Part shown: positions 34,071 to 60,504 of the stretch, piece by piece
Position numbering within the stretch: the stretch's first letter is position 1
Layout of the letters: each line of letters starts with the position of its first letter
The notes under the pieces: model-generated
Seen by the model: the letters and a program-made list of their open reading frames with translations, nothing else
Database searches by the model: none
Told to the model about the DNA's origin: nothing
Translations under genes and position numbers: made by a program
NCBI RefSeq assembly: GCF_030295405.1
Contig: NZ_AP027080.1
Coordinates: 1-64,000, forward strand
Source: Mesoterricola silvestris
Lineage (GTDB): Bacteria > Acidobacteriota > Holophagae > Holophagales > Holophagaceae
Length of the DNA: 64,000 nucleotides
Direction of reading: 5' to 3'

Positions 34071-34130
34071 CTATTCGCCGATGATCTTGATGAGTACCCG
34101 CTTGTCGCGGCGGCCGTCGAATTCGCCGTA
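34071..34130 (-). pseudogene. yjbQ: Displaced 3' end of resident yjbQ
   Basis: Read on the minus strand, this segment encodes [19 protein letters not shown] plus TAG. That is the last 19 residues of YjbQ and is identical in protein sequence to the C-terminus of the intact copy at 50780-51214. Its GC-rich codons match the backbone. It continues exactly where the resident gene breaks off at 60078, so joining 60078 to 34130 restores a 144-codon gene. It marks the left boundary of the island. Confidence 0.93.
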
Positions 34131-34165
34131 AAACACTTTTATGTACCAAATGATTGTCAACCGTG

Positions 34166-34575: not shown

Positions 34576-36162
34576 ATGGCCTGGGGACATCGCACCGTGT
34601 ATGTCCAGCAGCCCGCTAAGTCTCCCGAGACGCCCCAGGATCAATACCTGAGGATCCTGGAGGCCGCCCCCTTTTCTGAGCGAGCGGGTGCCATTGGTTA
34701 TTTCCTCGGGGAGCATGAGGACAAGGCGCAGGCTATGCAATGCGCTCAACGCCTAGCGGCGGACCCGGAGGCCGCCCTGCGCTTCGCCGGGGCAGCAGCT
34801 CTGGTCCGCTTGCACCTAGGTGGTTCGCGTGAGGCGGAGAAGACCCTCTGGACGCTAATCAGAGACGAAAGCCCAAAGGTCAGGGCCAAGGTCGCCGACG
34901 GCCTGAAGTGGGATAACCTGCCAGAGACGGGTCGGCTGAAGCAGGCGCTGGCGGAAGACGCAGATCCGACGGTTCGCGCCCACGCCGCGATGGGCTTGTA
35001 TTTGCTCGGCGATGAAGCTTCCCGTGCCTCCCTGCTAGCCCTCACCTGGGACCCTGTCGCCGAAGTCCGTGCTGAGGCCATATATGCCCTGCAGAACATC
35101 GAGGAGCAGAACAATCCGCCACCGCCCACAGAATTCTTGGGGTTCGTCGAGGACCCCTCGCCCCTGGTGCGGAGCAGCCTTGCAGCCTGGCTGCATTGGG
35201 AGAACCCCGCAATTTCGTTCCCTTACCTCCATCGGCTTGTCCGGGATCCGGATGCTTCCGTCCGGTTCCAGGCCCTTGCCTCTCTGGGGGCGAACCCGGC
35301 TTCCGAGGTCACCACTATCGTGCGATCGGCCACAGCGGACCCCGACCCATCCATCCGGGCCGAGGCCCTGAGTTTGCTCCAGAGCCGGGCATGCGCCGAC
35401 CTTCGCCAAGTCCTTCTCGCCAATGCTGCGGATTCCTCCTCGGTGGTGCGGAAGCAGGTCGCATACGGGCTAGAGCGGGATCCGACTCCCGACCTCTTGC
35501 CGACGCTTGAGAAGTTCAGCGAGGACGAGGCCAATATGAACATCCGCCGTTCTGCGCTTAGGAGCCTGGAACAACTCCCCGGTGTTGAGGCCGAGGCATT
35601 GATTGTCCGGATGTTGAGGGATCCCGCCAAACCGATCGCCAAAGCCGCAGAGAAGGTTCTCAAACAACGCGCCAAAATTCAGGGCGTCTCCCTGGAGAGC
35701 GCAAACATCGTCCAGTTCGGCCTTCAAGATGCTGTTGCGACCCGACTGGCCTTCCATGGCCTCTCAAAGGTGCCTCTGAAGGCCTGGGAGGATTTCCTGT
35801 CGCAAATCATCCGGCTGGATGGCCGGCCCAAGGCCGACTCGGCCTCCTCTCCAGCCGTGCAAGTCGAGGCCCAAGATGGAACCCTGCACTGCATTCTGCC
35901 CTTCGGTCCAGCCCAATGGATCCGCCTTGATACGGTTTTCCAGCCTGGCCACCCCACGCTTATGGGCTTCGCCATCCAAACGACAAAAGAAGTTGCCATT
36001 TGGTTCCAGACTCAGCAGCCTAGGCATTTTAACCACGGCCTCCGGTTGGCAAAGCGCCTTGGCTGGGTAGAGGGGAGTTCACCGACTTCCGATAATCCGG
36101 TCCAAACGGCCCGAGCCATCCATTGCAGGGCGCGACCATCCCGTGGCGCCCTGCTTTCCTAA
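34576..36162 (+). CDS. HEAT-repeat protein
   Basis: The 528-residue protein is dominated (about residues 30-370) by HEAT-like helical repeats. These have recurring D-P/S-x-x-x-V/I-R-x-x-A phrases such as DESPKVRAKVADGL, DADPTVRAHAAMGL, DPVAEVRAEAIYAL, DPSPLVRSSLAAWL, DPDASVRFQALASL and DPDPSIRAEALSLL. Such arrays are protein- or DNA-binding scaffolds. The C-terminal third (about 380-528) is not repetitive and is not recognised. ATG 34576 follows GGAGGTG. As first cargo gene, convergent with the GHKL ATPase gene, it may be an adaptor of the neighbouring system, but that is inferred only from position. Confidence 0.8.
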   Translation: MAWGHRTVYVQQPAKSPETPQDQYLRILEAAPFSERAGAIGYFLGEHEDKAQAMQCAQRLAADPEAALRFAGAAALVRLHLGGSREAEKTLWTLIRDESPKVRAKVADGLKWDNLPETGRLKQALAEDADPTVRAHAAMGLYLLGDEASRASLLALTWDPVAEVRAEAIYALQNIEEQNNPPPPTEFLGFVEDPSPLVRSSLAAWLHWENPAISFPYLHRLVRDPDASVRFQALASLGANPASEVTTIVRSATADPDPSIRAEALSLLQSRACADLRQVLLANAADSSSVVRKQVAYGLERDPTPDLLPTLEKFSEDEANMNIRRSALRSLEQLPGVEAEALIVRMLRDPAKPIAKAAEKVLKQRAKIQGVSLESANIVQFGLQDAVATRLAFHGLSKVPLKAWEDFLSQIIRLDGRPKADSASSPAVQVEAQDGTLHCILPFGPAQWIRLDTVFQPGHPTLMGFAIQTTKEVAIWFQTQQPRHFNHGLRLAKRLGWVEGSSPTSDNPVQTARAIHCRARPSRGALLS

Positions 36163-36283
36163 GTCTTGGGCGCATGGCAGGGCATGCCCTCCGTTGGTAA
36201 TGGTGAAGCCGGAATGGATGCGCTAGATCACTTTTGGAATCTTGACCTAACTCTCCAAGTAGCCGTTCCGGTGCATACCATAG

Positions 36284-37810
36284 CTAAATCCGCGCCATGA
36301 TTCGATCAACCAGCGTTTTTGCTGCTACTCGATTAACCGAGCACTCGTAAATCAGACTGATCATCCGCTGAATGGTCTCCCGCTCCTTTTTAGGCAGCTC
36401 TGCCAGCGGCCCAGCTTCCGAGGTCACCTTCTTGGCCTTTTTCAACCTGGACTCCAGCTCCTGATGCCTCTCTGCCAATAGGCTGCGGTCCTCTTCACAT
36501 AGGACCTGCGCATCAGCGACCTTCCTGATCTCATGCATTTCGCCTTGGATTTCTTGGACGATCGCATCTGCCTCGTTCTTGCGAAGCACTCCTTGTTCCA
36601 GGATATTCAACCGCTCCTCGATCTTCAGGACTCCGATATCAAAAGCTTTGATCCGATTGCGGACAATGGAATTGCTCCGGCAGAGGCGGGCAACGTGGTC
36701 CCCGATCTCAGTTAATTGATGGATGACTTGGGTATAGTGGGCATTCTGTTCAAAATCATCCCGGCGTCCGTTTGGAACAACCCTGTCATCCAGCAGGTGG
36801 ACTTCGCCCACGATCCAACTCGCAAACCGGGCTTCCGGGAAGATGGACGTAAAGATCCGGTGGTCGCCGACCTGAATGTTTCCTTTCCTGGCTTTGAGGC
36901 CCTTCACACCAGAGGCACTGGGAATTGCGCCGAGGTAGCTGTGGTTCACCATCCAGGCGACGGCAGAAACGCCGCCATTCATGCCGGGGAGGACCCGAAA
37001 CTCTGGGTCAGTGAATTCATCGGTCTTCGCATCCCCGACCGAAAATTCATTCAGGTAGGGTCGGTAAAGGGGAGTCTTCTTCTTACCCAGAAGGATCTGG
37101 ATCTCATCCAGGGCCGTATGCTCCCGGAGGAAGGCCGCTATCTTCTTGCCATATTTGAACTTGGGATTGAAAGGAACGGGCGCGACCTGGGATAGGTAGC
37201 GTCCGATTTCATCCTCGTTCAGAAGCAGGTCGTTCTTGATCCTGATGGGCTTCACCAACTCGACTTCGTAGAAGTGCTCAGGCCATCCGTCCGACTCAAG
37301 GACGGAGACCGTGGCGACCGCCTTGATGAGTTCCCCCACGCCACCGTCAAAATGGCTGTCCGTAACCAGTTTCTTGAAGGCTTTGCAGTCCCAGACCAAC
37401 TCCTGGACGTTGGCGTCCCCCTTCGACCGGGACCTGAAGATCAAAGACTGGCAATACCCCAGGCCAGCCAGCCGACCCACCCCGCGAAAGCCCCTGGCTG
37501 CGGTCCCTCGCTTCCGGCTGGCACCGAGGGAAGTAAGACGCTTGGCGAACTCACCGTTGGGAACACCCGTGCCGTTGTCACGGATTCGGACATTTCGGTT
37601 CTCGGCGTCGATATGAATCTCCACCTGCCCTATTTCATTGCCATAAAGGTTTAAGGCACGGGCCTCATCAATCGAATCGGCGGCATTCTGCACGTATTCC
37701 CTATAGATGGTCAGGGGATCGACGTACATGGCGGAGGTCACTAGCTCAAGAATGTCCTTACCGATCAAGATGTCGTTGGGGAGAGAAATGCTCGTGTGTT
37801 TGGTCACCAT
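36284..37810 (-). CDS. Hsp90-like GHKL ATPase
   Basis: The 508-residue protein has an N-terminal GHKL ATP-binding fold. The N-box is REYVQNAADSIDEA (residues 37-50), the Asp-Gly motif is IRDNGTGVP (near 78), and the lid Gly motif is GFRGVGRLAGLG (near 107). The middle region resembles the Hsp90/MORC-type transducer domain. The C-terminus (about 370-480) is a long coiled-coil stretch rich in Glu/Lys/Arg. ATG 37810 follows AAAGGA, 8 bp after the radical SAM stop, so the two are surely co-transcribed. GHKL ATPases of this kind recur in bacterial defence islands, but the job here is not known. Confidence 0.82.
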   Translation of the reverse strand: MVTKHTSISLPNDILIGKDILELVTSAMYVDPLTIYREYVQNAADSIDEARALNLYGNEIGQVEIHIDAENRNVRIRDNGTGVPNGEFAKRLTSLGASRKRGTAARGFRGVGRLAGLGYCQSLIFRSRSKGDANVQELVWDCKAFKKLVTDSHFDGGVGELIKAVATVSVLESDGWPEHFYEVELVKPIRIKNDLLLNEDEIGRYLSQVAPVPFNPKFKYGKKIAAFLREHTALDEIQILLGKKKTPLYRPYLNEFSVGDAKTDEFTDPEFRVLPGMNGGVSAVAWMVNHSYLGAIPSASGVKGLKARKGNIQVGDHRIFTSIFPEARFASWIVGEVHLLDDRVVPNGRRDDFEQNAHYTQVIHQLTEIGDHVARLCRSNSIVRNRIKAFDIGVLKIEERLNILEQGVLRKNEADAIVQEIQGEMHEIRKVADAQVLCEEDRSLLAERHQELESRLKKAKKVTSEAGPLAELPKKERETIQRMISLIYECSVNRVAAKTLVDRIMARI

Positions 37811-37818
37811 GATTCCTT

Positions 37819-39465
37819 TTACCGTGCCAGCGCCGCAGGCCGAGGGCTAGGCTCGGTCGAGTCCCCATCGTCCATGAGGCCAGCGTCTTCGACGACCTCG
37901 TCTTCGGGGAGATTGAAGGCGGGTTCCGGGGCTTCCAGCTTTCGCAGTTCCTTCTGCTTGTCCCAGATCACCCGCTCCACGTCCTTCTCAAGGGGGATGT
38001 AGAAGCTGAGAATGGCCTGGAGCTTGGGGTTGGCGACACCTTCCACCTTGCTCCTGATCTCAGCCCTGGTGAGGCGGTCGCCATCATTCTCGAATAGCCA
38101 GGTGCAAAGATACCCCGCCAGTTCGGAACGTTCTTCATCGGAAAGCCGGGCATCCTGAGCCAGGAACTCGTCGTACTCGGATCGTCCGTCCCCTTTGAAA
38201 TACCACATCCGGTTGAAGATGAAGTGGTGGGGCAGCGAGAGGAGCTTGAGGAAGTGGACGGAGGACTCGCCAAAGGCTTCCCGGAAGAAGTCCGGGCTGC
38301 CGCTGACAATGCCGTGGGTGGCCTGGAGGATGACTTGCATGGAACGGATCTGGTAGCGGTTCCAATGTTTGCCAACGAAGGACCGGTCCTTTTGGTCAAC
38401 GGGGTGATACCGCATTGGGAAGGAGAAGATGCGGATATTCAGTTCCTCGTTCAGTTGGACGTTCAGGTGCATGCGGTCGTAGAGGTCCGCAGGGTCGTCG
38501 TTGTAGTTGTAGAGCATGTAGTTGGACAGGCCCTTGATGCCATTATCCGCCGCCATGCGGATGGAGGTTTCGTACTGCTTGCGCAGCCCCAAGTGATCGA
38601 AGGCGATGCGCAGGGGGCTAATGCAGGTTCGGGCAATCTGCTTCATCAGTTCGCCGTTCTTGGCGAGTTCCCGGGCATCTACGCCTTGGTTGAAATCGAC
38701 CCTTCGCATGATTTGGATACCGCGTTTGCGGATGGTCGCGCCCCGGCCAAACCCCAGGTCCACCACCTCGGAGATGATGTCGGCAAACTTCTCCGAGGCC
38801 ACGATGTTGTTGTCCATGAAGATCAGGTCTTTCTTCTGACCGTACCGGGCCTCAATGCCGTTCACCAGCTTGGTGATGGACGGCGTGTCACGCTGGCCAC
38901 CTTCAAGCTTCGGAACCCCACAGAAGCTGCATGTCCGAATGCAGCCGCGCGAAGCATAAAGGAAGTAGGCGTCATGGACGGGGTAGCGATAGCTGATCTG
39001 TCCGAGGATGGAATAGTCCGGCAGCATCTCCTCAATAGGGCCGCTATGCCGGTCCTCCGAATAGAGTTCTTCGTCAAATTCATCCAGTTGCAGGGACTCC
39101 GCTGGGGAATCGACCAGCAGCCCTTGAATGAAGCGGATGCCTCGCCATCTGGGTTCTTCCAGGAACTTGTCATGCATGAGGGAGGCTGCAATCCCGCCTA
39201 CAAAGACGAGGTCCGCCCTGCCGTGGGCGACCTCCAGGGCGAAGTCGATGGACCTAGCCGTGCGGGTCCACTCAAACGAAAATAGGGTCGTGATGTAGAT
39301 ACGATCCCAGGCCGTGCCAATGACGGAACGGTCCTCGCCCTTTATGAATCTCACGTTGTCGCCCTTACCCTGGGGGCCATGGTACTGGGCAAGTTTCATC
39401 AAGCCGAGGGGAGGGTATTTGTTCCTATAGCCAGGTTCTATCAAAAGAATGTTCTTGTTTGCCAT
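37819..39465 (-). CDS. B12-binding-type radical SAM protein
   Basis: This protein has 548 residues from ATG 39465 (GGAG 5 bases upstream). The N-terminal part (NILLIEPGYRNKYPPLGLMKLAQYH...) has the layout of a cobalamin-binding Rossmann domain, though the DxHxxG cobalamin motif is not evident. The radical SAM core carries the cluster motif CIRTCSFC (Cys175, Cys179, Cys182), followed by IFMDNNIV and an extended C-terminal domain with an acidic tail. Such enzymes make a 5'-deoxyadenosyl radical to modify RNA, peptides or small molecules. The partner is the GHKL ATPase gene directly downstream. This composition is unusual for a defence-type cassette. Confidence 0.82.
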   Translation of the reverse strand: MANKNILLIEPGYRNKYPPLGLMKLAQYHGPQGKGDNVRFIKGEDRSVIGTAWDRIYITTLFSFEWTRTARSIDFALEVAHGRADLVFVGGIAASLMHDKFLEEPRWRGIRFIQGLLVDSPAESLQLDEFDEELYSEDRHSGPIEEMLPDYSILGQISYRYPVHDAYFLYASRGCIRTCSFCGVPKLEGGQRDTPSITKLVNGIEARYGQKKDLIFMDNNIVASEKFADIISEVVDLGFGRGATIRKRGIQIMRRVDFNQGVDARELAKNGELMKQIARTCISPLRIAFDHLGLRKQYETSIRMAADNGIKGLSNYMLYNYNDDPADLYDRMHLNVQLNEELNIRIFSFPMRYHPVDQKDRSFVGKHWNRYQIRSMQVILQATHGIVSGSPDFFREAFGESSVHFLKLLSLPHHFIFNRMWYFKGDGRSEYDEFLAQDARLSDEERSELAGYLCTWLFENDGDRLTRAEIRSKVEGVANPKLQAILSFYIPLEKDVERVIWDKQKELRKLEAPEPAFNLPEDEVVEDAGLMDDGDSTEPSPRPAALAR

Positions 39466-39866
39466 TAAGGCTCCAGAAGGCTCCCGTCGGGTCCTGAAGG
39501 AAATGATAGCGAGAACGGCCCACAAGTCGATCCCTAAGGCGCTGTCTGCATCCGCCTCGGCCAACTTCTGAAAAGAGAGGGGACCATCCTTTTTGCAACT
39601 CCATAATAATTTCATTCCGCATCACCCTTGAGTGCCGACGAGTTGTATAGGGATTGCTGGGGAATCTGCTTGCCACCCAAAAATAAATGCTGGCAGCGTC
39701 ATTGGCTGTCCATTGTCGTGGTGCAAAATCACGAAAGCAAAATGAGGGAAACGATTCATTCGTCTTGCTACTATTGGGGATTGCTCTCATTCAGTGCGGC
39801 CTTCCGTTTGGTTTTCATCTATCAGGTAGCGGCCGTAAACCTTAATAATCCAAGGAGGAATGGCTA
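39466..39866. other. Divergent regulatory region of the cargo
   Basis: This is a 401-bp spacer between the divergent radical SAM/GHKL operon and the ParB-nuclease-helicase operon. It is AT-richer than the neighbouring genes and should hold both promoters. No clear coding frame is seen. It ends with a strong AAGGAGG (39852-39858) serving the plus-strand operon. Confidence 0.55.
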
Positions 39867-40892
39867 ATGCCGCTTGTCATCCAGTACTTGGAGGTCAAAG
39901 ACATCGTCCTGGACTGCCGCAACCCTCGGGTGGCACCTGCACTGGAATCCCTGGAGGGAGACCCTGCGCAGGACTTCATCGAGATGGCGCTTGGCCAGTA
40001 CGCACCGGATGATTCGGAAAAGCCCAATTCCACGACTTTCTCCAGCCTCAAGGCGTCCATCCGGGCCTACCAGGGACTGATCAACCCAATCGTGGTGACC
40101 CAGAGGGAGGACGGTAAGTTCCTGGTCATCGAGGGCAACACTCGGGTTTCCATCTTCCGCCAGCTTGCCAAGGAAGGTGCGCTCGGCGATTGGTCCAAAA
40201 TCCCCGCGATGGTCCGCACCGAGTTGGAGGAGGAGGGAGAACATGCCATCCGCCTCCAGTCGCACCTAGTCGGCCCCCGCGACTGGCGTCCCTACGCCAA
40301 GGCCAAGTACCTCCACATGCTGTACACGGAGAAGAAGATCTCGATTACCCAGATTCTCGATTACTGTGGTGGCAGCGCCAGGAAGCGGGAAATCGAAGAA
40401 TTCATATACGCCTACGTGGACATGCAGGATCATTACATGGAGGTCATCGGCGACAACCCGCCGGACTACACCCGCTTCAGCGCCTTCGTTGAGCTTCAGA
40501 AGCCCGGCATCAAGGAGGCCATCACCAAGGCCAAGTTCACGCTGACGGACTTCGCCAAGTGGGTGCATGAGTCCAAGATTCACCCCTTGAGTACGGTTCG
40601 GCAGATTCCCAGGATTCTCGCCCACCCCGAAGCGCGGAAGAAGTTTCTGTCCTACAACGCCAGGGAAGCCATGAAGGTGCTGGAACAGCCCAGCGCCAAC
40701 GCGGCGCTGAAAGAGGCGACCATCGACCAGTTGGCGCAGGCCATCACAAGCAAGATTCGTACTCTCAACTACTCCGACATCCAGGGACTCAAGGAGGCCA
40801 ATACCTCCCTTCCCGCCCAGACGCTGCTCGAATGCTACGAAGAGCTTCGTGACCTATGCAAAATGACAGGCATGGTTACGGAAAATGAGTGA
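39867..40892 (+). CDS. ParB-like protein 1 (EGNTR type)
   Basis: The 341-residue protein contains a ParB N-terminal/sulfiredoxin-like domain with LINPIVV (residues 71-77) and EGNTRVSIF (89-97), the loop that binds nucleotide in ParB/Srx folds. The following helical region (about 125-200, ISITQILDYCGGSARKREIEEF) looks like the ParB helix-turn-helix. The rest is helical. Translation starts at ATG 39867, 8 bases after AAGGAGG. It is first of four overlapping genes. ParB-like NTPases with an EGN(T/S)R loop also occur in DNA-modification and defence systems (compare DndB/DpdB), but no further members of those systems are present. Confidence 0.8.
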   Translation: MPLVIQYLEVKDIVLDCRNPRVAPALESLEGDPAQDFIEMALGQYAPDDSEKPNSTTFSSLKASIRAYQGLINPIVVTQREDGKFLVIEGNTRVSIFRQLAKEGALGDWSKIPAMVRTELEEEGEHAIRLQSHLVGPRDWRPYAKAKYLHMLYTEKKISITQILDYCGGSARKREIEEFIYAYVDMQDHYMEVIGDNPPDYTRFSAFVELQKPGIKEAITKAKFTLTDFAKWVHESKIHPLSTVRQIPRILAHPEARKKFLSYNAREAMKVLEQPSANAALKEATIDQLAQAITSKIRTLNYSDIQGLKEANTSLPAQTLLECYEELRDLCKMTGMVTENE

Positions 40893-41328
40893 AGGGCTTC
40901 ATCACAAGCTGCTCGTCCAGGCCCTGCTTGGGGAGATCCGGAATCCCGCAGAATGGGACCGCCACCCCTTCGTCTACTGGGACCTTGAAGACGAGAACGG
41001 CGTGAATGTGCCCCCTCCCACCATTCAAGGAAGCCGCCCCGATATCCTGGCGCGGGACCCGGGTGACCGTCGCGTCATCATTGCTGAGGCGAAAACGTCC
41101 AGGGACATCGACAACCGCCACACGGAGACCCAGTTGGAAGCCTACTTCTATTTCCTGTCCGCTTTCGAAAAGGCAGAGCTTTGGCTAGGCGTCCCCTGGT
41201 CCTGTGGTGGCACTGCCAGGAGGGTTGCGATGAACGTCAGGTCCACCGTCGGAACCAACCATATTCCTATGCGGATCATGGATTTCCTGGTGGGCGAACC
41301 CATGTACAAGAGGGTCTGGAATGGGTGA
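40885..41328 (+). CDS. PD-(D/E)XK nuclease-like protein
   Basis: The 147-residue protein has the core of the restriction-endonuclease fold: Asp53 in RPDILAR and Glu68-x-Lys70 in VIIAEAKT, followed by an amphipathic helix with Gln (TETQLEAYFYFL). The N-terminal helix HHKLLVQALLGEI fits the first helix of the fold. It overlaps the ParB-like gene before it and the helicase gene after it by 8 bp each, so production is coupled. The nuclease probably works with the helicase as a split restriction-type enzyme, an inference from motif and order. Confidence 0.75.
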   Translation: MSEGLHHKLLVQALLGEIRNPAEWDRHPFVYWDLEDENGVNVPPPTIQGSRPDILARDPGDRRVIIAEAKTSRDIDNRHTETQLEAYFYFLSAFEKAELWLGVPWSCGGTARRVAMNVRSTVGTNHIPMRIMDFLVGEPMYKRVWNG

Positions 41329-42811
41329 ATTTACGTTCCGTCTTCGCTCGGAACCGAGCCTGGAGGCGCGGCACAAGGCGTTTCCCTTCCAGGGGGAGGC
41401 TGTCGAGTTCGTAACCTCTAGGGACTACGCGGCGATTTTCCATGAGCAGGGTCTTGGCAAGACCAAGATCGCCATCGATGCCATGCTCATGTGGCTCCAG
41501 CGGAAGGAAGTGGACACCATCCTGATCTTCACCAAGAAAGGGCTGATCGCCAACTGGCAGCGGGAGTTCAAGAGCCACACCAGCATCAACCCGCTGGTCG
41601 TCACGGAGAACACGGCCAAGAATTACTACGTGTTCACCACCCCTTGCCGGGTCATCCTGAGCCATTTCGAAGCGGCCAAGAAGGAACTGTCGCGGTTCAA
41701 GGCATGGGCCAAGTCGCGCCGGGTGGCCGTCATCATCGATGAGTCCGCCAAGATCAAGAATCCCGAAAGCGACCTGACAAAGGCGTTCTTCGAGTTGGGA
41801 CCGTACTTCGCCAAGCGGCTCATCATGACAGGGACCCCTGTGGCCAACCGGCCCTACGATGTCTGGGCACAGATCTTCTTCCTGGACCAGGGAGCGGCGC
41901 TCGGCACCGACTTCAAGGCGTTCAAGAAGGCCACAGACTTCACCAGTGAACTGGCCGACCACCCGGAGGCCTTCCAGGCCTTCACCGAGGCCCTCAGCGA
42001 GGTGAACCGGAAGCTTGCCCCGATTTCCTTGCGGGAAACCAAGGACAGCGGCCGGATCATCCTGCCTTCCAAGGAGTTCATCCGGGTGGACTGCGACTGG
42101 GAGCCTGCGCAATTCGAGCTGTATCGTCAGGTCCGGGAGGATTTGCGGCTGCTGATCATGCGGGACGGCCAGCTTATCGAGGACGATCAGGAATCCATCC
42201 TCAAGCGGCTCCTGCGCCTGATCCAGATCGCGTCCAATCCCTCCATAATCGACGGCGCCTATTCGTTGCTGCCAGGGAAGTTCAACTATCTCTACGACCT
42301 TCTCACGGACATCACCCGCCAGGGTGAGAAGGCCATCGTCTGGACCAATTTCAACGAGAACTGCGAATGGCTGAACAAGCAGCTTGCGCCCTTTGGGGCC
42401 TTGCCGATGAACGGCAGGATGAACATGGAGCGGCGGAACGCTTCAATCAACTGGTTCCTGGAAAGGCCGGAGAACCAAGTCCTGGTCGCCACACCAGGGA
42501 CGGCCAAAGAGGGTTTGACCCTCACGAACGCCAACCACGTCATTTTCTATGACCGCACCTACAGCCTGGATGACTACTTGCAATCCCAGGACCGGATCCA
42601 CCGGGTGTCCCAGACCCGGACCTGCTACGTATACAACCTGATCATGCTGAATTCGGTAGATGAGTGGGTTGATGCGCTGCTGGAAGAGAAGCGGTTGGCT
42701 GCACAGATCACCCAGGGCGACATCACTGCCGCCGCATACGCTGAGCAAGCTTCGCTTCAGTTCTTTGACATTCTCAAGCAGATTCTAGGTAGGGAGGATA
42801 GTCACTCATGA
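41321..42811 (+). CDS. SNF2-family DNA translocase/helicase
   Basis: The 496-residue protein has both RecA-like lobes. Walker A is HEQGLGKTKIA (44-48), and motif II is VIIDESAKIKN (about 138-148, a DES variant typical of SNF2). Motif III is IMTGTPV, motif V is TPGTAKEGLTL, and motif VI is QSQDRIHRVSQ near 425. SNF2 enzymes move along duplex DNA and remodel or unload bound proteins. No additional DNA-recognition domain is attached, so the ParB-like or nuclease partners may supply targeting. It overlaps its neighbours by 8 bp (5') and 4 bp (ATGA, 3'). Confidence 0.9.
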   Translation: MGEFTFRLRSEPSLEARHKAFPFQGEAVEFVTSRDYAAIFHEQGLGKTKIAIDAMLMWLQRKEVDTILIFTKKGLIANWQREFKSHTSINPLVVTENTAKNYYVFTTPCRVILSHFEAAKKELSRFKAWAKSRRVAVIIDESAKIKNPESDLTKAFFELGPYFAKRLIMTGTPVANRPYDVWAQIFFLDQGAALGTDFKAFKKATDFTSELADHPEAFQAFTEALSEVNRKLAPISLRETKDSGRIILPSKEFIRVDCDWEPAQFELYRQVREDLRLLIMRDGQLIEDDQESILKRLLRLIQIASNPSIIDGAYSLLPGKFNYLYDLLTDITRQGEKAIVWTNFNENCEWLNKQLAPFGALPMNGRMNMERRNASINWFLERPENQVLVATPGTAKEGLTLTNANHVIFYDRTYSLDDYLQSQDRIHRVSQTRTCYVYNLIMLNSVDEWVDALLEEKRLAAQITQGDITAAAYAEQASLQFFDILKQILGREDSHS

Positions 42812-43812
42812 CCTTCCAGGAAGATACGATCACGATCCGGAAGAAGGAAATCAAAGTCAAAACGGGCTACATGCCCCAGCTGGACTTGCGGTTCTTCCCC
42901 GAGAACCCCCGCATCTACTCCATGGTTTGGGCCGAGGACGGTGAAGTGCCGACCCAGGAGGAGATCTTTAATGCCCTGTCCAAAAGTGAGCATGTCCGCG
43001 AGACCTTGGTCCCCAGCATCAAAGCCAATGGAGGCCTGATCGAGCCAGTTCTGGTTCGGAAAAATGTGGTTCTGGAAGGTAATAGCCGCCTTGCCGCCTT
43101 TCGATTGCTTTACCAAGTCGATCCGAAGGCCTGGGTCAACATCCGCGTCAAGATTCTGCCGGATGGCATCACTGACAGCGAGGTGTTCTCTCTTCTGGGC
43201 GAATTCCATATCGTCGGCAAAAAGGACTGGGCGCCTTTCGAGCAGGCTGGGTACCTCTACAGAAGATTCAAGCTCCACGGCGTCCCCGAGGATCAATTGC
43301 ACCAGGAGGTGGGCATTGGCAAAGCCAAAATTCAGCACCTCATCCGGGTCTACCAATACATGCTGGACAAGGGCGACAAGAACCCTGACCGCTGGAGCTA
43401 CTACGATGAGCTTTTGAAGGGACGCAAGTTCGACAAGGCCCGCGCGTTATACCCTGGCTTTGACGAACGCATCACCGGGATGATCCAGGACGGCTCAATC
43501 TCCAGGGCCGTCGATGTCCGTGACAACCTTTCCATGGTGGTCAAGGTCGGCGGAAATACCCTTAAGAAGTTCATGAACGGTGGATTGACCTTCGATGGCG
43601 CGGTAGAAGATGCTCGGTTACGTGGAGCAGGTAGTTATTACGTCACCAAATTTTCTGATTTCCGAAAATGGTTGGCTGACGACCATTTGGATGCCGAAAT
43701 CAGTTCCGTTTCCGAAAAGGAAAAGGGTGTGTTGGAATATGAGCTTTCTCGAATCGAAAAGCGAATCAAGCAGATTGCACACAAATTGAAGCCTTCTACT
43801 TCTTCCAACTAA
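42808..43812 (+). CDS. ParB-like protein 2 (EGNSR type)
   Basis: The 334-residue protein is a second ParB/Srx-fold protein in the same operon. It has GLIEPVLVRKNVVLEGNSRLAAFRLL (loop Gly91-Asn92-Ser93-Arg94 within its second half). A helix-turn-helix-like segment follows (about 150-175, HGVPEDQLHQEVGIGKAKIQHLI). It differs clearly from the first ParB-like protein in sequence, so it is not a recent duplicate. The pair may form a heteromeric clamp or a DNA-binding complex. The start overlaps the helicase stop (ATGA). The 3' end becomes AT-rich and faces the convergent Rossmann-like gene. Confidence 0.78.
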   Translation: MTFQEDTITIRKKEIKVKTGYMPQLDLRFFPENPRIYSMVWAEDGEVPTQEEIFNALSKSEHVRETLVPSIKANGGLIEPVLVRKNVVLEGNSRLAAFRLLYQVDPKAWVNIRVKILPDGITDSEVFSLLGEFHIVGKKDWAPFEQAGYLYRRFKLHGVPEDQLHQEVGIGKAKIQHLIRVYQYMLDKGDKNPDRWSYYDELLKGRKFDKARALYPGFDERITGMIQDGSISRAVDVRDNLSMVVKVGGNTLKKFMNGGLTFDGAVEDARLRGAGSYYVTKFSDFRKWLADDHLDAEISSVSEKEKGVLEYELSRIEKRIKQIAHKLKPSTSSN

Positions 43813-43845
43813 TAGCAATGTCAGAATTGGCGGATAGGCTAAGGG

Positions 43846-44694
43846 CTATAGGTCTGGAAATAAATTAAGGGGTAAAGTCTCTTCGGCTTCGGGCGCGGGG
43901 ATCCAGGGGAATTCATCAAAAGGATGGTCATTTAGGCCTGTAATTTCTCTCTCAACTTTTTGAACGGCGAAGGCCCAAAGGCCCATCGGAACGTTTGTGT
44001 CCCGATATTTATACTTTTCAATTAGCGCTGGTGACAATTTCTCTGACGCATGGACTCCGCCTGTATTCCGTAGGAAGGCCTGTCCAACAAGTAAATCGAC
44101 GTGATTTCGCACCTTGAATTGAGTGTCAATATCGCCTTCGTCAACATGGAAATAATCCGAAAATAGATTCAGCTTATCTTCCATAAATGTAGGTTGATGC
44201 ATAACCCGCGGCACAAGGCATGACGTGATAATTAGGAAATCGCCGGCACGCAATAGATTAAATTTTAAAAGTGACTCAATCGCCCCTTGGTGCCTCTGTG
44301 CAAAACATTCGGTATAATCTAAAAAGAATATGAAATTCTGTCCTGCTTGACGTTCTCCAAGCTTCCCGAAATCAATTGCAAAGTCTCCTTGAATCACGGA
44401 AATATGAACACGCTTAGTCAGTCGCAAGGCTTTTGCCACAACGCAGTTGTTTGCCTTTTGCGCCAAGTCCTCCTCGAGCTCGAAAGAGAAGGCTAAGAAT
44501 TTTCTTTTTCGGAGGTCAAATACGGCAAGTAAGTCCATTAAATCATAAAGCTCTGCTCCGCCAAATGTCACATAGGAGATCAAATCCGCCCCAGGCTTGA
44601 GTTGCTTTTTTACAGATCTAAAGCACTGGTTTAGCACTAGTCTTTTCTGGATGCGGTATGGAGGCTGGAGGGTATCGTGGTATTGGTTGCTCAT
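43846..44694 (-). CDS. Rossmann-like protein of unknown function (possible methyltransferase fold)
   Basis: The 282-residue protein is AT-rich. I do not recognise a family. The order of strands resembles a class I methyltransferase. LISYVTFGGAELYDL stands in for motif I, FLAFSFELEED for motif II with an acidic end, VIQGDF for motif III, FIFFLDYTECF for motif IV, and LLRAGDFLIITSCL for motif V. The usual GxGxG is missing, so this is weak. It is the second gene after the GHKL ATPase on the minus strand, 25 bp downstream, and is probably its partner. Confidence 0.5.
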   Translation of the reverse strand: MSNQYHDTLQPPYRIQKRLVLNQCFRSVKKQLKPGADLISYVTFGGAELYDLMDLLAVFDLRKRKFLAFSFELEEDLAQKANNCVVAKALRLTKRVHISVIQGDFAIDFGKLGERQAGQNFIFFLDYTECFAQRHQGAIESLLKFNLLRAGDFLIITSCLVPRVMHQPTFMEDKLNLFSDYFHVDEGDIDTQFKVRNHVDLLVGQAFLRNTGGVHASEKLSPALIEKYKYRDTNVPMGLWAFAVQKVEREITGLNDHPFDEFPWIPAPEAEETLPLNLFPDL

Positions 44695-44719
44695 TTATCT
44701 TATCGATTCGCGCGAGGCA

Positions 44720-46423
44720 TTATTTGGAGGTTGGGGTAGAACGAACAATCAGTGCCACGAGATAATTTTTGACAGCTTCAGATAGTTTTGTTGAATCTGA
44801 AACTTTAAAAATTCTTAAACAGTTTGAAAATTCATTCGCATTTAACGGGAACACTATGCCGGCCGTTAAGCAATCGTAAACAATAACTCCTAAGGAGTCT
44901 TCATCCTGTGCCCCGAGGGTCGCGCATAAATTTTCAAAGTCTGCTGGTGCTAATGAAATTGTAATCTGCCGATCTGCCGGTGGTTCCATTTCGCTTGTGG
45001 TACCCTCTCCGGAGGTGTCCTCGCTTTCGTTGGTTGGCGATGTGGCTGTGGTGCTTGGATCGGCGGCGCTTGGTTTTTTTGATTTCACGGCTCGCCTATC
45101 AAACTTAAAGGCTGGCCTGTGTTCCTCGGGAATAATCGGGGAATAGGGACTCACTGGCACAGTGGCTGGTATTCCTGTGAAAGCCTTAACTAATTCTGTA
45201 TTTCTATGCTCTGTCTCTGTTGCGAAAGTTCCAGAAACTTGGCCATATTGGACAAGGAAAGGCCTAATTACTGTCCGAAGCCAAATGCTAACTTCGTGAT
45301 CTTTGAAATATTCGCGCTTATGCGTATCCCATGGAATTCCAAGGCTGTGACCAGAGATGTGTAACTCGCCCCTAACAAACCGGCTGCCTACGGTATTTTT
45401 ACCAAGGCCGGTTGTTCCAAATCCGAATTCATCCTTGAGATATTTTTGAATCAATCTGCCATTCGCATAAACATCAATTCCGAAATCCTTTTCTCGATTG
45501 GTGCCTTCGCCAGGTTGATGAGTTAGCAGCCCAACTGTGAGCTCAAATTTCAATTCAACATCCTGCCCACTGTTCACCAAATTCTTAAAGGTATTTTGGA
45601 AGATGTATGTTCGAGGTTCAACTCCATCTGCGCCTGAATATACAATCTGGGGAACAGCGACAACCGGGGATTTGTTGACTGAAATTTGTACTTTCTTTCC
45701 ACCCTCATTGCCTCGGAGAATAGGGGCATATATTTCGCCAATCCTTGCTCTCAATACGCTAATATCATCAAGGTTAGGGGGTAGTATCAGCCGGAGAAAG
45801 TAAAACCGCGTTAGCCCAACACCAATTGCATCAGTGCGCCCATCCAGGGTTTTCCAGGTAGGGTCTTTCTCCCACCCTTCGGGCACTTCGCTAAAAGACG
45901 AAAAATCGGCCGACTTACAGGAGACGACCCGAACCCCATCCGAAAGCCTAAATATTGCTTTCTTTGCACCCATGCCAAAGGATCCGATCATGGGCTTTGA
46001 AAGGTCATCATTGGTGGATTCGCCTGGGATAAAGACTTTGTACACTGTTTCGTCGTCCATCCCGCCAGCGTTATCCTCAAATTCTCCAACGCCAAGGGTG
46101 ATGTCATAGTTTATTTTTATCTTGAGATCTGCTATCTTTCCACCGCGTCGCCATTCATCAATGGAATTATCTATCAATTCGTAGTTGGCTTCAAAAAATG
46201 AAAGATCTCTTCGAGCATTTAGGACAAGGGCTTTCGGTGGAGCGTGGTCCTTAGCTTCAGCTCCCGCTGATGGCTGTATATTCGCAAAAAAGGTTCGGAG
46301 GCCGAGAAAGAAGCTGATGTCTTTATTGTATGTTTTTGCAAGGGTGGGAAAATCGTGCTCGTTGAGGATAGCTCGCTGCTCTGACGTTGTTAACGATTCC
46401 CAAGTCGTAGTCTCAGAATCCAA
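44720..46423 (-). CDS. GHKL ATPase (MORC/Hsp90-like), second copy in island
   Basis: The 567-residue protein uses a TTG start at 46423 behind GGAGG. The GHKL fold shows the N-box ANYELIDNSIDEW (79-91), FEDNAGGMDD (near 115) and the lid GSFGMGAKKAIF (near 147). The middle (about 200-400) is a predicted transducer domain. A Ser/Thr/Pro/Glu-rich linker (about 440-490) precedes a small helical C-terminal domain. It is not closely similar to the GHKL protein at 36284-37810. It is markedly AT-rich compared with the backbone, so it has a different source. It is paired with the Rossmann-like gene downstream. Confidence 0.8.
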   Translation of the reverse strand: MDSETTTWESLTTSEQRAILNEHDFPTLAKTYNKDISFFLGLRTFFANIQPSAGAEAKDHAPPKALVLNARRDLSFFEANYELIDNSIDEWRRGGKIADLKIKINYDITLGVGEFEDNAGGMDDETVYKVFIPGESTNDDLSKPMIGSFGMGAKKAIFRLSDGVRVVSCKSADFSSFSEVPEGWEKDPTWKTLDGRTDAIGVGLTRFYFLRLILPPNLDDISVLRARIGEIYAPILRGNEGGKKVQISVNKSPVVAVPQIVYSGADGVEPRTYIFQNTFKNLVNSGQDVELKFELTVGLLTHQPGEGTNREKDFGIDVYANGRLIQKYLKDEFGFGTTGLGKNTVGSRFVRGELHISGHSLGIPWDTHKREYFKDHEVSIWLRTVIRPFLVQYGQVSGTFATETEHRNTELVKAFTGIPATVPVSPYSPIIPEEHRPAFKFDRRAVKSKKPSAADPSTTATSPTNESEDTSGEGTTSEMEPPADRQITISLAPADFENLCATLGAQDEDSLGVIVYDCLTAGIVFPLNANEFSNCLRIFKVSDSTKLSEAVKNYLVALIVRSTPTSK

Positions 46424-46682
46424 GGAGACCTCCGTGTGAAATTGGATTGTAACGCAAGGAGCGGTTCATTGGTCCTCGGTATCTGCGCCCATTACCTCGG
46501 AACCTTGAGCCTCTCTGCATGACTCTGTCGGAAATTAGATTAGTCATTTCATTGTGGCACACGGCCATCATTGATGGAAGGGTGTTTGATGGGATTTGAA
46601 ATTTGCAAAGATAGCTAAACATCTACCACGGACCATCCAAGGCTCAGTCGGGTGAAATGTGAATGCGATGGGGATTGTGCTT

Positions 46683-46752
46683 TTCCCTACTTATTTTTAC
46701 CAGGACCTTCTTATCCCGCCTTCCAACAAATTCTCCATAGTAAACTTCTATA
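46683..46752 (-). pseudogene. Foreign yjbQ 3' fragment inside the island
   Basis: On the minus strand this encodes IEVYYGEFVGRRDKKVLVKI and then SRE, the YjbQ C-terminus in a diverged, AT-rich version that runs on into unrelated codons until 46644. It lies next to the second copy of the TGTGTGGGTGA end signature, in the same relative position as at the left boundary. It is best read as an old attachment-site half carried in from another host or left by an earlier insertion. Confidence 0.8.
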
Positions 46753-46771
46753 CATTTAAGGGATGTTAACT

Positions 46772-47651: not shown

Positions 47652-47864
47652 CTAGAGAGGATGCTGGTCGTCCACCTGGTGTCGGAATTGCCCAACCATC
47701 CGGCCGTAGCGGTCACCTTGCTCTCGATCTAAGATGGCCTCCCCGCATGCGGGGCAGAACTCGCACGTCACCGCCGAGATGATGGCACTTACACCACGGT
47801 AGTCGGTGGGAATATCGTGGGTGGTATGTATCAGATCCGCTGCCCCGCAAGCTGGGCATCGCAT
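47652..47864 (-). CDS. MqsA/YgiT-type zinc-finger protein, lacking the HTH half
   Basis: The 70-residue product starts at ATG 47864 with AAAGGAG upstream. The two CxxC pairs MRCPACG and CPACGEAIL, with DIPTDYRGV between them, match the N-terminal zinc domain of MqsA antitoxins. MqsA normally continues with a helix-turn-helix domain, which is absent here because a stop follows QVDDQHPL. Short YgiT-type proteins exist on their own, so it could be complete. No MqsR-like toxin lies upstream. Confidence 0.65.
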   Translation of the reverse strand: MRCPACGAADLIHTTHDIPTDYRGVSAIISAVTCEFCPACGEAILDREQGDRYGRMVGQFRHQVDDQHPL

Positions 47865-48315
47865 GGGGTTGGTCTCCTTTCCACTAGGATAGACACGTTT
47901 GGAGGAAGACCACGGGGAGTCGGACCTGACCTCAAGGGGCCTTGCTTCTATAGGATGGGTCATTGGTGTTCTCCAGCAACCCAAGGACCCAGCCTTTAGC
48001 CAATAGCAAAACTGGTGGTATGGAATGTCCAGGCGGCGCGCAGCCTTTGCCGAAGTCCACTCCCTAATCCTTAATCCCTTAACAAGGTATTTTCCCCCCC
48101 CCGACGAAGCCGATCAGATAGCTGTTGATGACAAACCGAGGTGGGACATATGGAGAGCGTGCAGCGGCCTTCATGAGCCCGCCCGGATTCACGATCGACA
48201 TTTGGGGGCTACCGCGCAATACCTGAGAGTTGGACACAACTCCCCTCGTCGAAAAAGTGCGGACACTCACTTGTGGGAAATCCCACCAGGCATATACAGT
48301 GAACGGGAAGGCAAA
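47865..48315. other. Stretch without a supported gene
   Basis: A plus-strand frame runs from 48025 into the antitoxin gene, but its first 97 codons have no ribosome site or domain features, so it is not treated as coding. The minus strand also shows nothing convincing. Confidence 0.45.
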
Positions 48316-50779: not shown

Positions 50780-51214
50780 ATGAAATCCCACCGTGCCACC
50801 ATCACCCTGCATCTTCCCGAGCGAACCGGTTTTGTGAATATCACCCCGGACATTGAGGAGGTTGTTGAGGAGAGTTCCATCCAGGAGGGCCTATGCCTGG
50901 TGAACGCCATGCATATAACCGCCAGTGTGTTCATAAATGATGACGAGCCAGGGCTACACGAGGACTACATACGCTGGTTGGAGCGGTTGGCCCCATTCAA
51001 CGCTGGCACGGACCCGGCCAAGGGGGGCTACCTGCACAACCGGTCAGGTGAGGAAAATGGCGATGCTCATCACAAACGCCAGATTATGGGGCGAGAAGTA
51101 GTACTAGCGATCACGCATGGTCAATTGGATTTTGGGCCATGGGAACAAGTATTTTACGGCGAATTTGATGGCAGACGGGATAAGCGCGTTTTAATCAAAA
51201 TAATTGGCGAATAA
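50780..51214 (+). CDS. yjbQ: Complete YjbQ (UPF0047) carried by the island
   Basis: The 144-residue full-length member of the YjbQ family starts at ATG 50780 after TTGGAGG. It keeps the C-terminus [24 protein letters not shown] that the resident gene has lost. Over the first 125 residues it differs from the resident copy at about 23 positions by eye, and it uses AT-richer codons, so it is a transferred homologue and not a recent duplicate. It is in the opposite direction to the resident gene. YjbQ proteins have been reported to have weak thiamin phosphate synthase activity. Carrying an intact copy would offset the damage done by insertion. Confidence 0.92.
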
Positions 51215-51958: not shown

Positions 51959-54070
51959 TCAAGGGCAGGCATCATCATGCGACCACCCCATACCGGTGCG
52001 CCGTCGGTTTGGGGCAGGCGGGGCTGTCACTGCGGCTTCCAGGGCGTCTCGATTCCCCACTAGCACCACCTGCTCTTGGGCCCTGGTCAGGGCCGTGTAG
52101 ATCAGGGTCCGATCCAGGAGTCGGCTGGGGAAGACGGGGATGACGACCCGCCTGAACTGGCTGCCCTGGGCTTTATGTACGGAGACCGCGTAAGCGAGGT
52201 CCAGGCTTTCAAGATCAGCCCGTTCCATTATCATCGGCTTGCTGTGACCATCCCAACTTACCGAGAACGAGTTGGAGTATGCGCCATCAACGATGCCCAG
52301 AGTGCCGTTCCAAATCCGCCGCTCATAGTCGTTCTCCAGAAAAATTACGGGGTCACCAACGGCGAACCCTTCCCAGGCCTCATGGCCTACAGATCGAAGG
52401 TTATGGAGTGATCGGTTGATGGCCTGAATCCCCGCTTGGCCACGCTTGATGGCTGAGAGAATCTGAGTCACACCCGGACCACCCAGCTCTGACAGCATCT
52501 CAATCACTAGGCCTTGGGCGTCGGCCTCAGTACAAGGCGTGAAAGACACGCCCTTGCCGACGCCACAAAATCTAGACAACTCGGGCATACGGCCAAGGCG
52601 TATTTCCTGAGCACACTTCGGAATCCCTGTCTCTGCAGCCTGCCGATGCACCACCGTCAGTTCGACTTTGGGGGCTCGGTCATCCTCGGCGTACACACTG
52701 AAAACCAGTCCCATGCCGATGGGTGGGAGTTGATAAGGATCGCCGACCAGCAGCACCCGAGTGCCCTCGGGGATCTCACGCAGTAAGGTATACATCAGTG
52801 GGAGATCGATCATGCTGGCCTCGTCGATGACGATCAGGTCTCCCCCTCCGAGGGCCAAATCCCCTCGATCTAAGGCCCCCAGGAACCCTGCGATAGTGCG
52901 GGCCTGATGACCCGTGGCCTCCTGTATTCGGATGGCCGCACGGCCAGCCAGCGCGAGGAAGTGGACGGTGCCCTCGCAACGCGACACGGTCCATTGGACA
53001 GCCTTCAGCACGGTAGTCTTACCAGTACCGGCTCCACCTAAGAGCAGGGCAAACCGCTGAGTTAAAGCCAGCCACACCGCCTGTTTTTGTTCGTCCGTGA
53101 GTTTAAAATCGTTCCCAGCCTGGAACTCCCCGATCAAGGCGTTCACCTCGGCATCGGTGGGGACCTGCCAGAACAGATGCCCAGAGGGAGCGAACTCTGC
53201 GGCCACCAACGATGAAATTCTGTCCTGGACGTAGGACTCCATCACATGGGGACCCAGAGCCTGCCAACGGCCCATGCTCAACTGGACCACCGCCTGGTCC
53301 TCGCATGCCAGTTTTAGGGCCGATTCCGCTCCGTTCCGGACTTCTCCGAGGAGTTGAGCCACACCGCGCAACAACTCGTCCTCCCCTATGGTCGTGTGCT
53401 TTTCGCTAATGGTTCGATAGCAAGTGGCCTCAACAGCGGCGACCCGACGAGTGTCAGCGTCACTCGGAACTCCCATTAGGCGGGCAGCCGTGTCTACCTC
53501 ACTCCAGCCGGCAACAGCCAGCATCCGGTACGGGTTCTCTTCTACCTTCTCTGGAGCCAGCGGCCCCCAGAGCTTGATGACTTTACCGGCCAGCCGCACT
53601 GGAAACCCGTGCATGTCCAACCACTCCACTACCCGAGCCTCGGCGCGTGTCTCCTCCCAGGCTGCGGCCAGCGTTTCGGCGATCTCCGCCCCTACTACTT
53701 CAGCCAGGGATTTCGTGTCCTTGGCGTCCAGGAGGTCGACAAGGCCATTTCGGAATTTCTCCCACAGCTTGCCTGCCCGGATCTCTCCAACCCCCTGGAA
53801 GGCACGATTACGGGCCAGGAATCGCCTAAGATGCTCACCCTCAGGGACCACGGGGACGGCAAGGGAAGCTACGATTTGGAGACCCCATATCGGGTGAGTT
53901 TCAGTTTCCCCTTGTACGCGCCAGGATTCTTCGGGCCTCGGCGGCCTCGAAAGTACTTTCTCGCTGGCGACAACTTTGTGGAAGTCGCCCTTTGGGTCCT
54001 TGCCCAGAAACACCGCGCCGCCTTTGGGACCACGCCACACCCGCGAGATGGTCAAGGCAAGTTCTGTCAT
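51959..54070 (-). CDS. RecD2-like DNA helicase
   Basis: The 703-residue superfamily 1B helicase is predicted to unwind DNA 5'-3'. The N-terminal OB-like/helix-hairpin region (about 1-320) includes FQGVGEIRAGKLWEKF. Walker A is LLGGAGTGKTTVLK (about 345), Walker B is LIVIDEASMIDLPL, and motif III is LLVGDPYQLPPIG. The C-terminal motif AVSVHKAQGSQFRRVVIP with YTALTRAQEQVVLVG is that of the RecD/TraA group. It is the last of six overlapping genes (ATGA with the gene before), so it is a functional part of the recombinase module and not random cargo. It may process the element's DNA during excision or integration. Confidence 0.9.
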   Translation of the reverse strand: MTELALTISRVWRGPKGGAVFLGKDPKGDFHKVVASEKVLSRPPRPEESWRVQGETETHPIWGLQIVASLAVPVVPEGEHLRRFLARNRAFQGVGEIRAGKLWEKFRNGLVDLLDAKDTKSLAEVVGAEIAETLAAAWEETRAEARVVEWLDMHGFPVRLAGKVIKLWGPLAPEKVEENPYRMLAVAGWSEVDTAARLMGVPSDADTRRVAAVEATCYRTISEKHTTIGEDELLRGVAQLLGEVRNGAESALKLACEDQAVVQLSMGRWQALGPHVMESYVQDRISSLVAAEFAPSGHLFWQVPTDAEVNALIGEFQAGNDFKLTDEQKQAVWLALTQRFALLLGGAGTGKTTVLKAVQWTVSRCEGTVHFLALAGRAAIRIQEATGHQARTIAGFLGALDRGDLALGGGDLIVIDEASMIDLPLMYTLLREIPEGTRVLLVGDPYQLPPIGMGLVFSVYAEDDRAPKVELTVVHRQAAETGIPKCAQEIRLGRMPELSRFCGVGKGVSFTPCTEADAQGLVIEMLSELGGPGVTQILSAIKRGQAGIQAINRSLHNLRSVGHEAWEGFAVGDPVIFLENDYERRIWNGTLGIVDGAYSNSFSVSWDGHSKPMIMERADLESLDLAYAVSVHKAQGSQFRRVVIPVFPSRLLDRTLIYTALTRAQEQVVLVGNRDALEAAVTAPPAPNRRRTGMGWSHDDACP

Positions 54071-54465
54071 GGAATCACCCGCCTCCCCGTGGAAACCATG
54101 TGTTCCTCAATATGGGCGTACCGCCGGAGCTTCTGACGCAGACCCTCAACCTCGGCCTGGAGGACAGCATTCCTCGCCTCCAACGTCTGGATGCGGCGGT
54201 CCTTGGCGTCATCCTTGGATGGGCCCGCCTCACGTGTCTCCATCGGCGCGAGGCCCAGCTCTTGGGCGGCGGCTTCGAGCATGGCCCGACACTTCACATT
54301 TTTATAAAGCGACTGGGTTTCGATGCCTGACGCCAGGGCAACGCCCTTGGCTGAGACCTTTCCGGCTCGGGAGGGGAGCGCTTTCCCTTCCTTTCGCAAG
54401 GCTTCCAAATACTGGGCAAGGGTCTCCGAATACTCATCCCCGATTTGTTTACCGCTTTTGGTCAC
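54067..54465 (-). CDS. Small coiled-coil accessory protein B of the recombinase module
   Basis: The 132-residue protein uses a GTG start at 54465 that overlaps the previous stop. The N-terminal half (YSETLAQYLEALRKEGKALP, then KGVALASGIETQSLYKNVKCR) looks like a small DNA-binding helical domain. The C-terminal half is a leucine-rich coiled coil (IQTLEARNAVLQAEVEGLRQ). It is similar in build to the protein encoded just upstream. TnpC-like helical proteins accompany the recombinases of Tn554-like elements, and this is probably such a factor. Confidence 0.65.
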   Translation of the reverse strand: MTKSGKQIGDEYSETLAQYLEALRKEGKALPSRAGKVSAKGVALASGIETQSLYKNVKCRAMLEAAAQELGLAPMETREAGPSKDDAKDRRIQTLEARNAVLQAEVEGLRQKLRRYAHIEEHMVSTGRRVIP

Positions 54466-54923: not shown

Positions 54924-54933
54924 AAACCGTCCC

Positions 54934-60452: not shown

Positions 60453-60504
60453 GGGCGGCCTCTTCCCTACAGTAGACTGGTACCCGAACTTTTTGGAGTC
60501 GCCC

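Follow-up and report, generated by a model that had tools for sequence, protein, structure and literature searches.

GHKL ATPases of the MORC and paraMORC groups occur in restriction-modification operons beside SNF2 helicases, nucleases and methyltransferases, and MORC proteins carry the motif GhXhhpXXRhl (both according to PMC2292703). A comparable assembly of genes is present in Mesoterricola silvestris at 34,576–46,423 of a 64,000-nucleotide stretch (positions 1 to 64,000 of contig NZ_AP027080.1, assembly GCF_030295405.1; hereafter the window), where two GHKL genes likewise lie beside SNF2, nuclease and methyltransferase-like genes. In contrast to the MORC proteins, the first of these ATPases, GHKL1, is Hsp90/HtpG-like, and the locus also encodes a radical SAM (rSAM) enzyme and two ParB-like proteins; the words "radical" and "ParB" are absent from that paper, and a pattern search for the MORC motif in GHKL1, GHKL2 and GHKLp was negative, so that MORC membership was rejected. 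Here we describe how six genes of this locus, encoding GHKL1, rSAM, ParB1, a small nuclease, an SNF2 translocase and ParB2, form one linked system that is both mobile and modular.

Other described systems resemble the locus in part. The window SNF2 matches DpdE at 2.8e-33, a DndB-family (DGQHR) partner accompanies about half of the relatives (25 of 59 loci), and, as in Dnd and Dpd, a modifying enzyme would stand beside a restriction-type module. The cassette differs in having rSAM and the Hsp90-like GHKL1 instead, the window copy lacks a DndB gene, and no homologue of DndA, DndC, DndD, DndE or DpdA was found among its nine proteins, for which reason membership was rejected. Among PADLOC models the same SNF2 is closest to ZorD of Zorya (1.2e-45) and weakly matches DrmD of DISARM, but the cassette nuclease is a separate 147-amino acid protein. 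Only the SNF2 matches these two systems, by helicase similarity, and PADLOC found no second component (ZorA-ZorB; DrmA-DrmB-DrmC); membership in either was rejected. With ParB and Noc the cassette shares a ParB_N-type domain with conserved NPR and GNTR motifs; it differs in having two distinct ParB-like proteins on either side of a nuclease and an SNF2 motor, and a ParABS partition system was rejected for lack of ParA among the cassette proteins. Among the papers listed in searches of the open-licence PMC library, none was seen to describe an operon of this kind that joins a radical SAM enzyme to a GHKL/Hsp90-like ATPase, which does not prove absence.

The nine genes are arranged as a HEAT-repeat gene on the plus strand, GHKL1 and rSAM on the minus strand, a four-gene operon on the plus strand and a last pair on the minus strand. 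The initial annotation, made from the sequence alone, had placed the open reading frames (ORFs) correctly, and its layout is borne out, except that it counted eight genes where nine are present. GHKL1 (36,284–37,810, minus strand, 508 amino acids) matches HATPase_c_3 at 2.4e-10 and an HtpG profile at 3.2e-13, which identifies it at the level of sequence as Hsp90/HtpG-like. The rSAM gene (37,819–39,465, minus strand, 548 amino acids), whose start codon was set by comparison with homologues, was recognized from its motif and from an AlphaFold2 (AF2) model with an N-terminal, B12-domain-like Rossmann fold. It is separated by a divergent intergenic region of 401 bp, read directly from the sequence (39,466–39,866), from ParB1 (39,867–40,892, plus strand, 341 amino acids), a protein with a ParB/Srx-type N-domain whose ParB_N match (4.3e-5) lies below the gathering score. 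Downstream on the same strand are the small PD-(D/E)XK nuclease (40,885–41,328, 147 amino acids), identified by its invariant residues and weak Cas4-like matches, the SNF2-family DNA translocase (41,321–42,811, 496 amino acids; SNF2-rel_dom 3.2e-25, Helicase_C 6e-18) and ParB2 (42,808–43,812, 334 amino acids), which aligns with ParB1 and has no Pfam match. The ends of these four genes overlap, and we therefore regard them as an operon. A promoter and terminator scan gave counts not above those of shuffled sequences, and the same was true of the promoter-like sites in the 401-bp gap.

To follow these genes across genomes, we scanned a genome collection with an rSAM alignment. Of the 425 relatives obtained, we examined the 80 most similar. 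According to their record titles, these 80 come from Pseudomonadota, Acidobacteriota, Verrucomicrobiota, Nitrospirota, Gemmatimonadota, Chloroflexota and others. In 79 of the 80 loci rSAM is followed immediately downstream by GHKL1, the single exception (L079) being a contig that ends at rSAM. Clustering of the rSAM sequences at 85% identity reduced the set to 59 loci, many on contigs that are cut short. Of these, 30 carry the ParB/SNF2 module, 25 a DGQHR gene, 13 a PIN gene, 25 two or more GHKL genes and 1 the last pair of the cassette (P0008-GHKL2). For the 36 clusters that extend 9 kb or more to either side, the corresponding numbers are 19, 18, 10, 18 and 0.

Searches anchored on the other genes led back to the same association. 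In plasmids, ParB1 and SNF2 retrieved an identical set of seven records, all of which also encode rSAM; full-length rSAM occurs in 12 plasmid records, 5 of them without the ParB module. ParB2 matched 8 of 72,556 plasmid records, and the six that were inspected all contain ParB-type genes, SNF2, rSAM (57–59% identical) and GHKL1; of the other two records, one is near-identical to an inspected plasmid and one comes from Persicobacter (48% coverage). The same six genes were seen in alphaproteobacterial plasmids. A DGQHR gene is annotated in five of the six inspected plasmids and detected by a profile match in the sixth, the unannotated NZ_CP016287, and five of the six have a PIN-like gene. A Bradyrhizobium copy has a diverged nuclease and three ParB-like genes. 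In all eight viral contigs with ParB1 an rSAM gene adjoins it, seven of them having both rSAM and GHKL1, and rSAM was found within the stretch at 14 of 16 viral GHKL1 loci. Of 396 Acidobacteriota genomes, four have rSAM matches and four have ParB1 profile matches, the strong ParB1 matches (the window and G271) being full systems, with the same divergent layout and a DGQHR gene in G271; a further rSAM match, G230, was viewed within its 3.6-kb locus only. The SNF2 profile matched none of 289 genomes from the class of a Magnetospirillum genome, an empty answer that proves nothing there. In the remaining viral contig with ParB1 (L188:8622–13877), the ParB/SNF2 module directly follows a very diverged rSAM, possibly an older or minimal form.

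Because the association is conserved across phyla, the six-gene core reflects more than chance proximity. The initial annotation had left open whether the locus is one system or two side by side and had proposed a comparison of which genes stay together. For the core, this comparison rules out two unrelated systems: rSAM-GHKL1 and the ParB operon are linked in 30 of 59 loci, in seven plasmids and in eight of eight viral contigs with ParB1. A single fixed system of nine genes is equally ruled out; co-conservation extends over the six core genes and does not include the HEAT gene or the last pair in the scanned loci.

The constant element of the system is the rSAM-GHKL1 pair. Members of the radical SAM superfamily are characterized by a CxxxCxxC cluster motif, which is present in 104 of 104 relatives of the window enzyme, and Cys-175, Cys-179 and Cys-182 are the only invariant cysteines in 35 aligned sequences. 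The AF2 model (mean predicted local distance difference test score, pLDDT, of 88.6) consists of a Rossmann-type domain and an rSAM barrel; the nearest fold in the PDB is AprD4 (Z 17.1, root mean square deviation 3.8, 362 residues), with MgmA (Z 16.4), MtaB, TsrM and MiaB as further neighbours. Cluster motif, barrel and PDB matches together place the protein in the superfamily, so the radical SAM label of the initial annotation holds through motif and confident fold, the Pfam match itself being weak and below the curated cut-off. The two-domain fold is that of the B12-domain-type enzymes (AprD4, MgmA, MtaB/MiaB, TsrM; Z 14–17 over 325–362 residues), but the identity is only 12–16%, and the window family has neither DxHxxG nor any invariant cysteine beyond the three. 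DxHxxG is the cobalamin motif of cobalamin-dependent radical SAM enzymes; none of the 104 relatives has it within the first 170 residues, although cobalamin may still be bound without the motif. Methylthiotransferases (MiaB/RimO/MtaB) have an additional N-terminal three-cysteine cluster, and this assignment was rejected for lack of further conserved cysteines, hence of a second cluster. Chains related to viperin, a type of enzyme that converts a nucleotide triphosphate, appear among the fold matches at Z ~9, alongside many other rSAM folds. A phage rSAM family, phrog_9298, gives a profile match of 4e-37 to the window protein but is ~300 rather than 548 residues long and mostly lacks GHKL1 or the ParB module. 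On four phage contigs (L100, L104, L110 and L134), distant rSAM relatives lie near genes for RecA, DnaB, PAPS-reductase-like proteins, cytosine methylase, glycosyltransferase or terminase.

GHKL (Bergerat) ATPases are defined by an N box and a DxGxG box. The corresponding motifs of GHKL1 are ExxQNxxD, present in 102 of 102 relatives, and DNGxG, present in 75 of 102, and HATPase_c_3 is recognized in GHKL1 and GHKL2 alike. NCBIfam provided only weak general models for the rSAM-GHKL1 pair and nothing specific.

In the ParB1-nuclease-SNF2-ParB2 module the catalytic motifs are likewise intact. NPR and GNTR are invariant in ParB1 (alignment A6), as are NPR and GN-R in ParB2 (alignment A2). In the nuclease, His-7, Pro-52–Asp-53, Glu-68–Ala-69–Lys-70 and Gln-83 are invariant over 15 sequences, and PD-x-E[AV]K occurs in 44 of 46 relatives, as expected of a PD-(D/E)XK enzyme. 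The helicase motifs of SNF2 are invariant in alignment A4, with the Walker A, Walker B and motif VI elements of an SNF2 translocase; QxxDRxHR is present in 52 of 52 relatives and GxGKT in 46 of 52.

The position of this module relative to rSAM varies. In 52 loci including the window, ParB/SNF2 lies upstream on the same strand in 31, upstream on the opposite strand in 11, downstream on the opposite strand in 7 and downstream on the same strand in 3. A quick rSAM tree, in which 20 of the 90 inner branches have poor support and one row (L099) is long, shows at least 16 changes in the presence of the module among 79 tips, compared with a mean of 22.6 and a minimum of 17 for shuffled labels. Its arrangement changes 15 times among 52 tips (mean 19.5 and minimum 16 after shuffling). 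These counts indicate partial joint inheritance, yet frequent exchange through repeated re-association. The window rSAM is nearest to those of L010 and L011, and the window SNF2 to those of L078 and L043; L010 and L011, both short contigs, have AIPR or NurA-like/HerA genes beside rSAM-GHKL1 and not the ParB module.

Several other modules were found at rSAM-GHKL1: PIN_8 together with a further GHKL; a GHKL and a NurA-like protein (motifs seen by eye, no Pfam match) accompanied by a HerA-like ATPase (weak Pfam match); an Mrr-DndB combination, in which DndB is fused to a nuclease-like N terminus (by eye); and AIPR. Another module that recurs, a methyltransferase-like protein (by eye) with GHKL, HerA and DUF5131, adjoins the pair in L047, L051 and L077 (~13–18 kb in L051 and L077). 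The window copy has no DndB-like (DGQHR) gene, and its genome gave no match to one. The two GHKL pairs emphasized in the initial annotation prove to be a recurrent theme, a second GHKL with a different partner being found in 25 of the 59 dereplicated loci.

The last pair of the cassette consists of P0008 (43,846–44,694, minus strand), an accessory methyltransferase-like protein of Rossmann type recognized by motifs only, and GHKL2 (P0009; 44,720–46,423, minus strand, 567 amino acids, TTG start), an accessory second GHKL ATPase with a HATPase_c_3 match of 3.3e-6. Pfam supports the assignments of GHKL1, GHKL2, SNF2 and HEAT made in the initial annotation and, just under the cut-off, that of ParB1; for P0008, "Rossmann-like" agrees with the motifs, and the structure model is too poor to be usable (mean pLDDT 40.5). 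P0008 has no family match in the profile libraries and none in plasmids. Homologues of both proteins occur together in one other locus, the acidobacterial contig L039, directly beside rSAM-GHKL1; the P0008 homologue there is 30% identical and shares the YVTxGGxEL and IQxD motifs. GHKL2 was found in 1 of 396 Acidobacteriota genomes, its own, and had no homologue in phages or viral contigs. Remote matches in plasmids comprise two haloarchaeal and one Rhizobium sequence; both haloarchaeal relatives adjoin a Dam-family methyltransferase gene, which fits a GHKL-methyltransferase pairing, and one also adjoins DptF/DptG. On one haloarchaeal plasmid (L178:8856–12784) the GHKL2 relative lies between two Dam-family methyltransferase genes, beside DptF/DptG. 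The proposal that the last pair is separate thus stands insofar as it is no fixed part of the system and is weakened insofar as the L039 pair, a single case, adjoins the same rSAM-GHKL1; we regard it as an optional second GHKL-partner pair of a kind common in the relatives. No counterpart of the HEAT-repeat protein (34,576–36,162, plus strand, 528 amino acids; Pfam HEAT_2 6.5e-30) turned up at any of the other scanned loci. A 39% identical homologue exists in G004, a genome of the same genus, with no other gene of the system in the 19 kb examined there, and the HEAT gene is probably a passenger of the island described below. Comparison of P0008, P0009 and HEAT with other neighbour families by hhalign gave nothing.

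Base composition separates the same groups. The last pair is the more AT-rich, as the initial annotation had noted: GC content and GC content at third codon positions (GC3) are 0.44/0.45 and 0.46/0.42 for its two genes. The six core genes have values of 0.52–0.59/0.68–0.81, the HEAT gene 0.62/0.70 and host genes ~0.70/0.94. The cassette is thereby split into three blocks: HEAT, the six core genes and the last pair.

All nine genes are carried by a 26-kb genomic island (34,134–60,077) inserted in the 3′ end of yjbQ (UPF0047), as seen from empty sites in relatives. Two genomes of the same genus have an uninterrupted yjbQ: in G001, matches to window positions 34,078–34,133 and 60,078–61,271 abut inside the intact gene, and the same is found in G004. 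The island has its own intact yjbQ copy (50,780–51,214). Its right end holds genes of the tyrosine-recombinase type. At 54,067–59,973, two large genes with Phage_integrase matches and one (54,934–57,069) with no Pfam match lie next to one another and, together with a DUF6262-like gene, form a recombinase-trio type of integration unit. A RecD2-like helicase (51,959–54,070) and an MqsA-antitoxin-like gene (47,652–47,984) are encoded in the same island. A diverged copy of the C-terminal end of yjbQ (46,670–46,754, minus strand; 14 of 19 residues match by eye) is no more than suggestive of an inner cassette junction and second att site, since the DNA match is not above shuffles.

On balance, we think it probable that the six core genes constitute one mobile, modular DNA-targeting defence system with a half that marks or senses and a half that attacks. 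A defence role would be consistent with the nuclease and motor modules, the mobility, the patchy distribution (rSAM in 4 of 396 Acidobacteriota genomes) and the neighbours, from which we infer it. At 1e-10, 104 flanking ORFs hit 152 PADLOC models, proteins of Lamassu, Gabija, PARIS and PD-T7-1 among them, whereas 74 control ORFs, taken from arbitrary parts of nine genomes with the system, hit 11; the comparison counts redundant models against a small and unmatched control and is weak, supporting rather than decisive. Several observations weigh against a DNA-targeting defence system. No PADLOC model matches rSAM, GHKL1 or GHKL2, family searches recognized no DNA-binding domain in rSAM, and the fold neighbours of rSAM act on small molecules, proteins or RNA. 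The choice of the best 80 of 425 relatives by similarity to the window rSAM biases the module frequencies, the ParB module of L188 has a very diverged rSAM as its sole partner and lacks GHKL1, and the weak ParB1-profile matches in G101 and G285 stand alone, without rSAM or SNF2.

In such a defence system, the constant half, rSAM and the Hsp90-like GHKL1, would most likely place a chemical mark on a substrate, be it nucleic acid or protein, or else load and sense it; this substrate would tell the system what is self or when the cell is infected. The exchangeable half would do the damage: two ParB-type clamps and the SNF2 translocase may travel on DNA and deliver the small PD-(D/E)XK nuclease there, and in relatives this half is replaced or joined by other nuclease/ATPase modules. 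Chemical modification by rSAM alongside a nuclease and motor, as suggested in the initial annotation, is plausible, and DNA as its substrate is speculative. The least certain step of this presumed mark-and-attack division of labour is that the nuclease module would read the rSAM-GHKL1 mark, by analogy with DndB-containing modification systems. A more specific version is offered tentatively and is rather unlikely as it stands: the pair might install a new chemical mark on DNA or a DNA-bound protein, a self/non-self signal for interchangeable modules (SNF2-ParB-PD-(D/E)XK, HerA-NurA, Mrr-DndB, PIN, AIPR), and so act as a radical-chemistry "licence" core driven by the Hsp90-like ATPase.

Exchangeable effector modules would also fit a shared signal, and rSAM might instead make a diffusible small molecule, such as a modified nucleotide, acting in the manner of viperin as a poison of phage polymerases or as a signal to the nuclease. 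The nearest rSAM folds, AprD4 and TsrM, are enzymes that we take, partly from their entry titles, to act on small molecules. We nevertheless find this account doubtful, given that no dedicated small-molecule sensor domain was recognized in the effector modules, that the frequent DndB-like partner (25 of 59) belongs to a family named for DNA-sulfur modification, and that viperin-like enzymes rank only at Z ~9 among many rSAM folds. Improbable, in our estimate, is a service to the mobile element itself, in segregation with ParB in partition, transfer, stabilization or protection of its own DNA. Island and plasmid locations, ParB-like proteins and nearby plasmid and integrase genes would agree with such a service, but the cassette has no ParA, the system is also found on chromosomes and in many element types, and a nuclease and an SNF2 motor are not known as parts of ParABS partition. 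That the nine genes are merely independent neighbours in a cargo island, linked by shared hitch-hiking, is very improbable. HEAT, which is not co-conserved, and the AT-rich last pair, with its one other locus, would suit it; for the six core genes, however, it is largely refuted by linkage across phyla, by the reverse anchors and by repeated re-association in four orientations, and even the last pair adjoins the same rSAM in L039.

The finding adds an unnamed and widely spread gene system, with 425 rSAM relatives in one genome collection. That its core is combined with five or more different DNA- or RNA-attacking modules points to a common upstream chemistry. Should the rSAM product be a mark on DNA, cells would carry an epigenetic self-label of a new kind; a signal molecule would instead open a new signalling branch.

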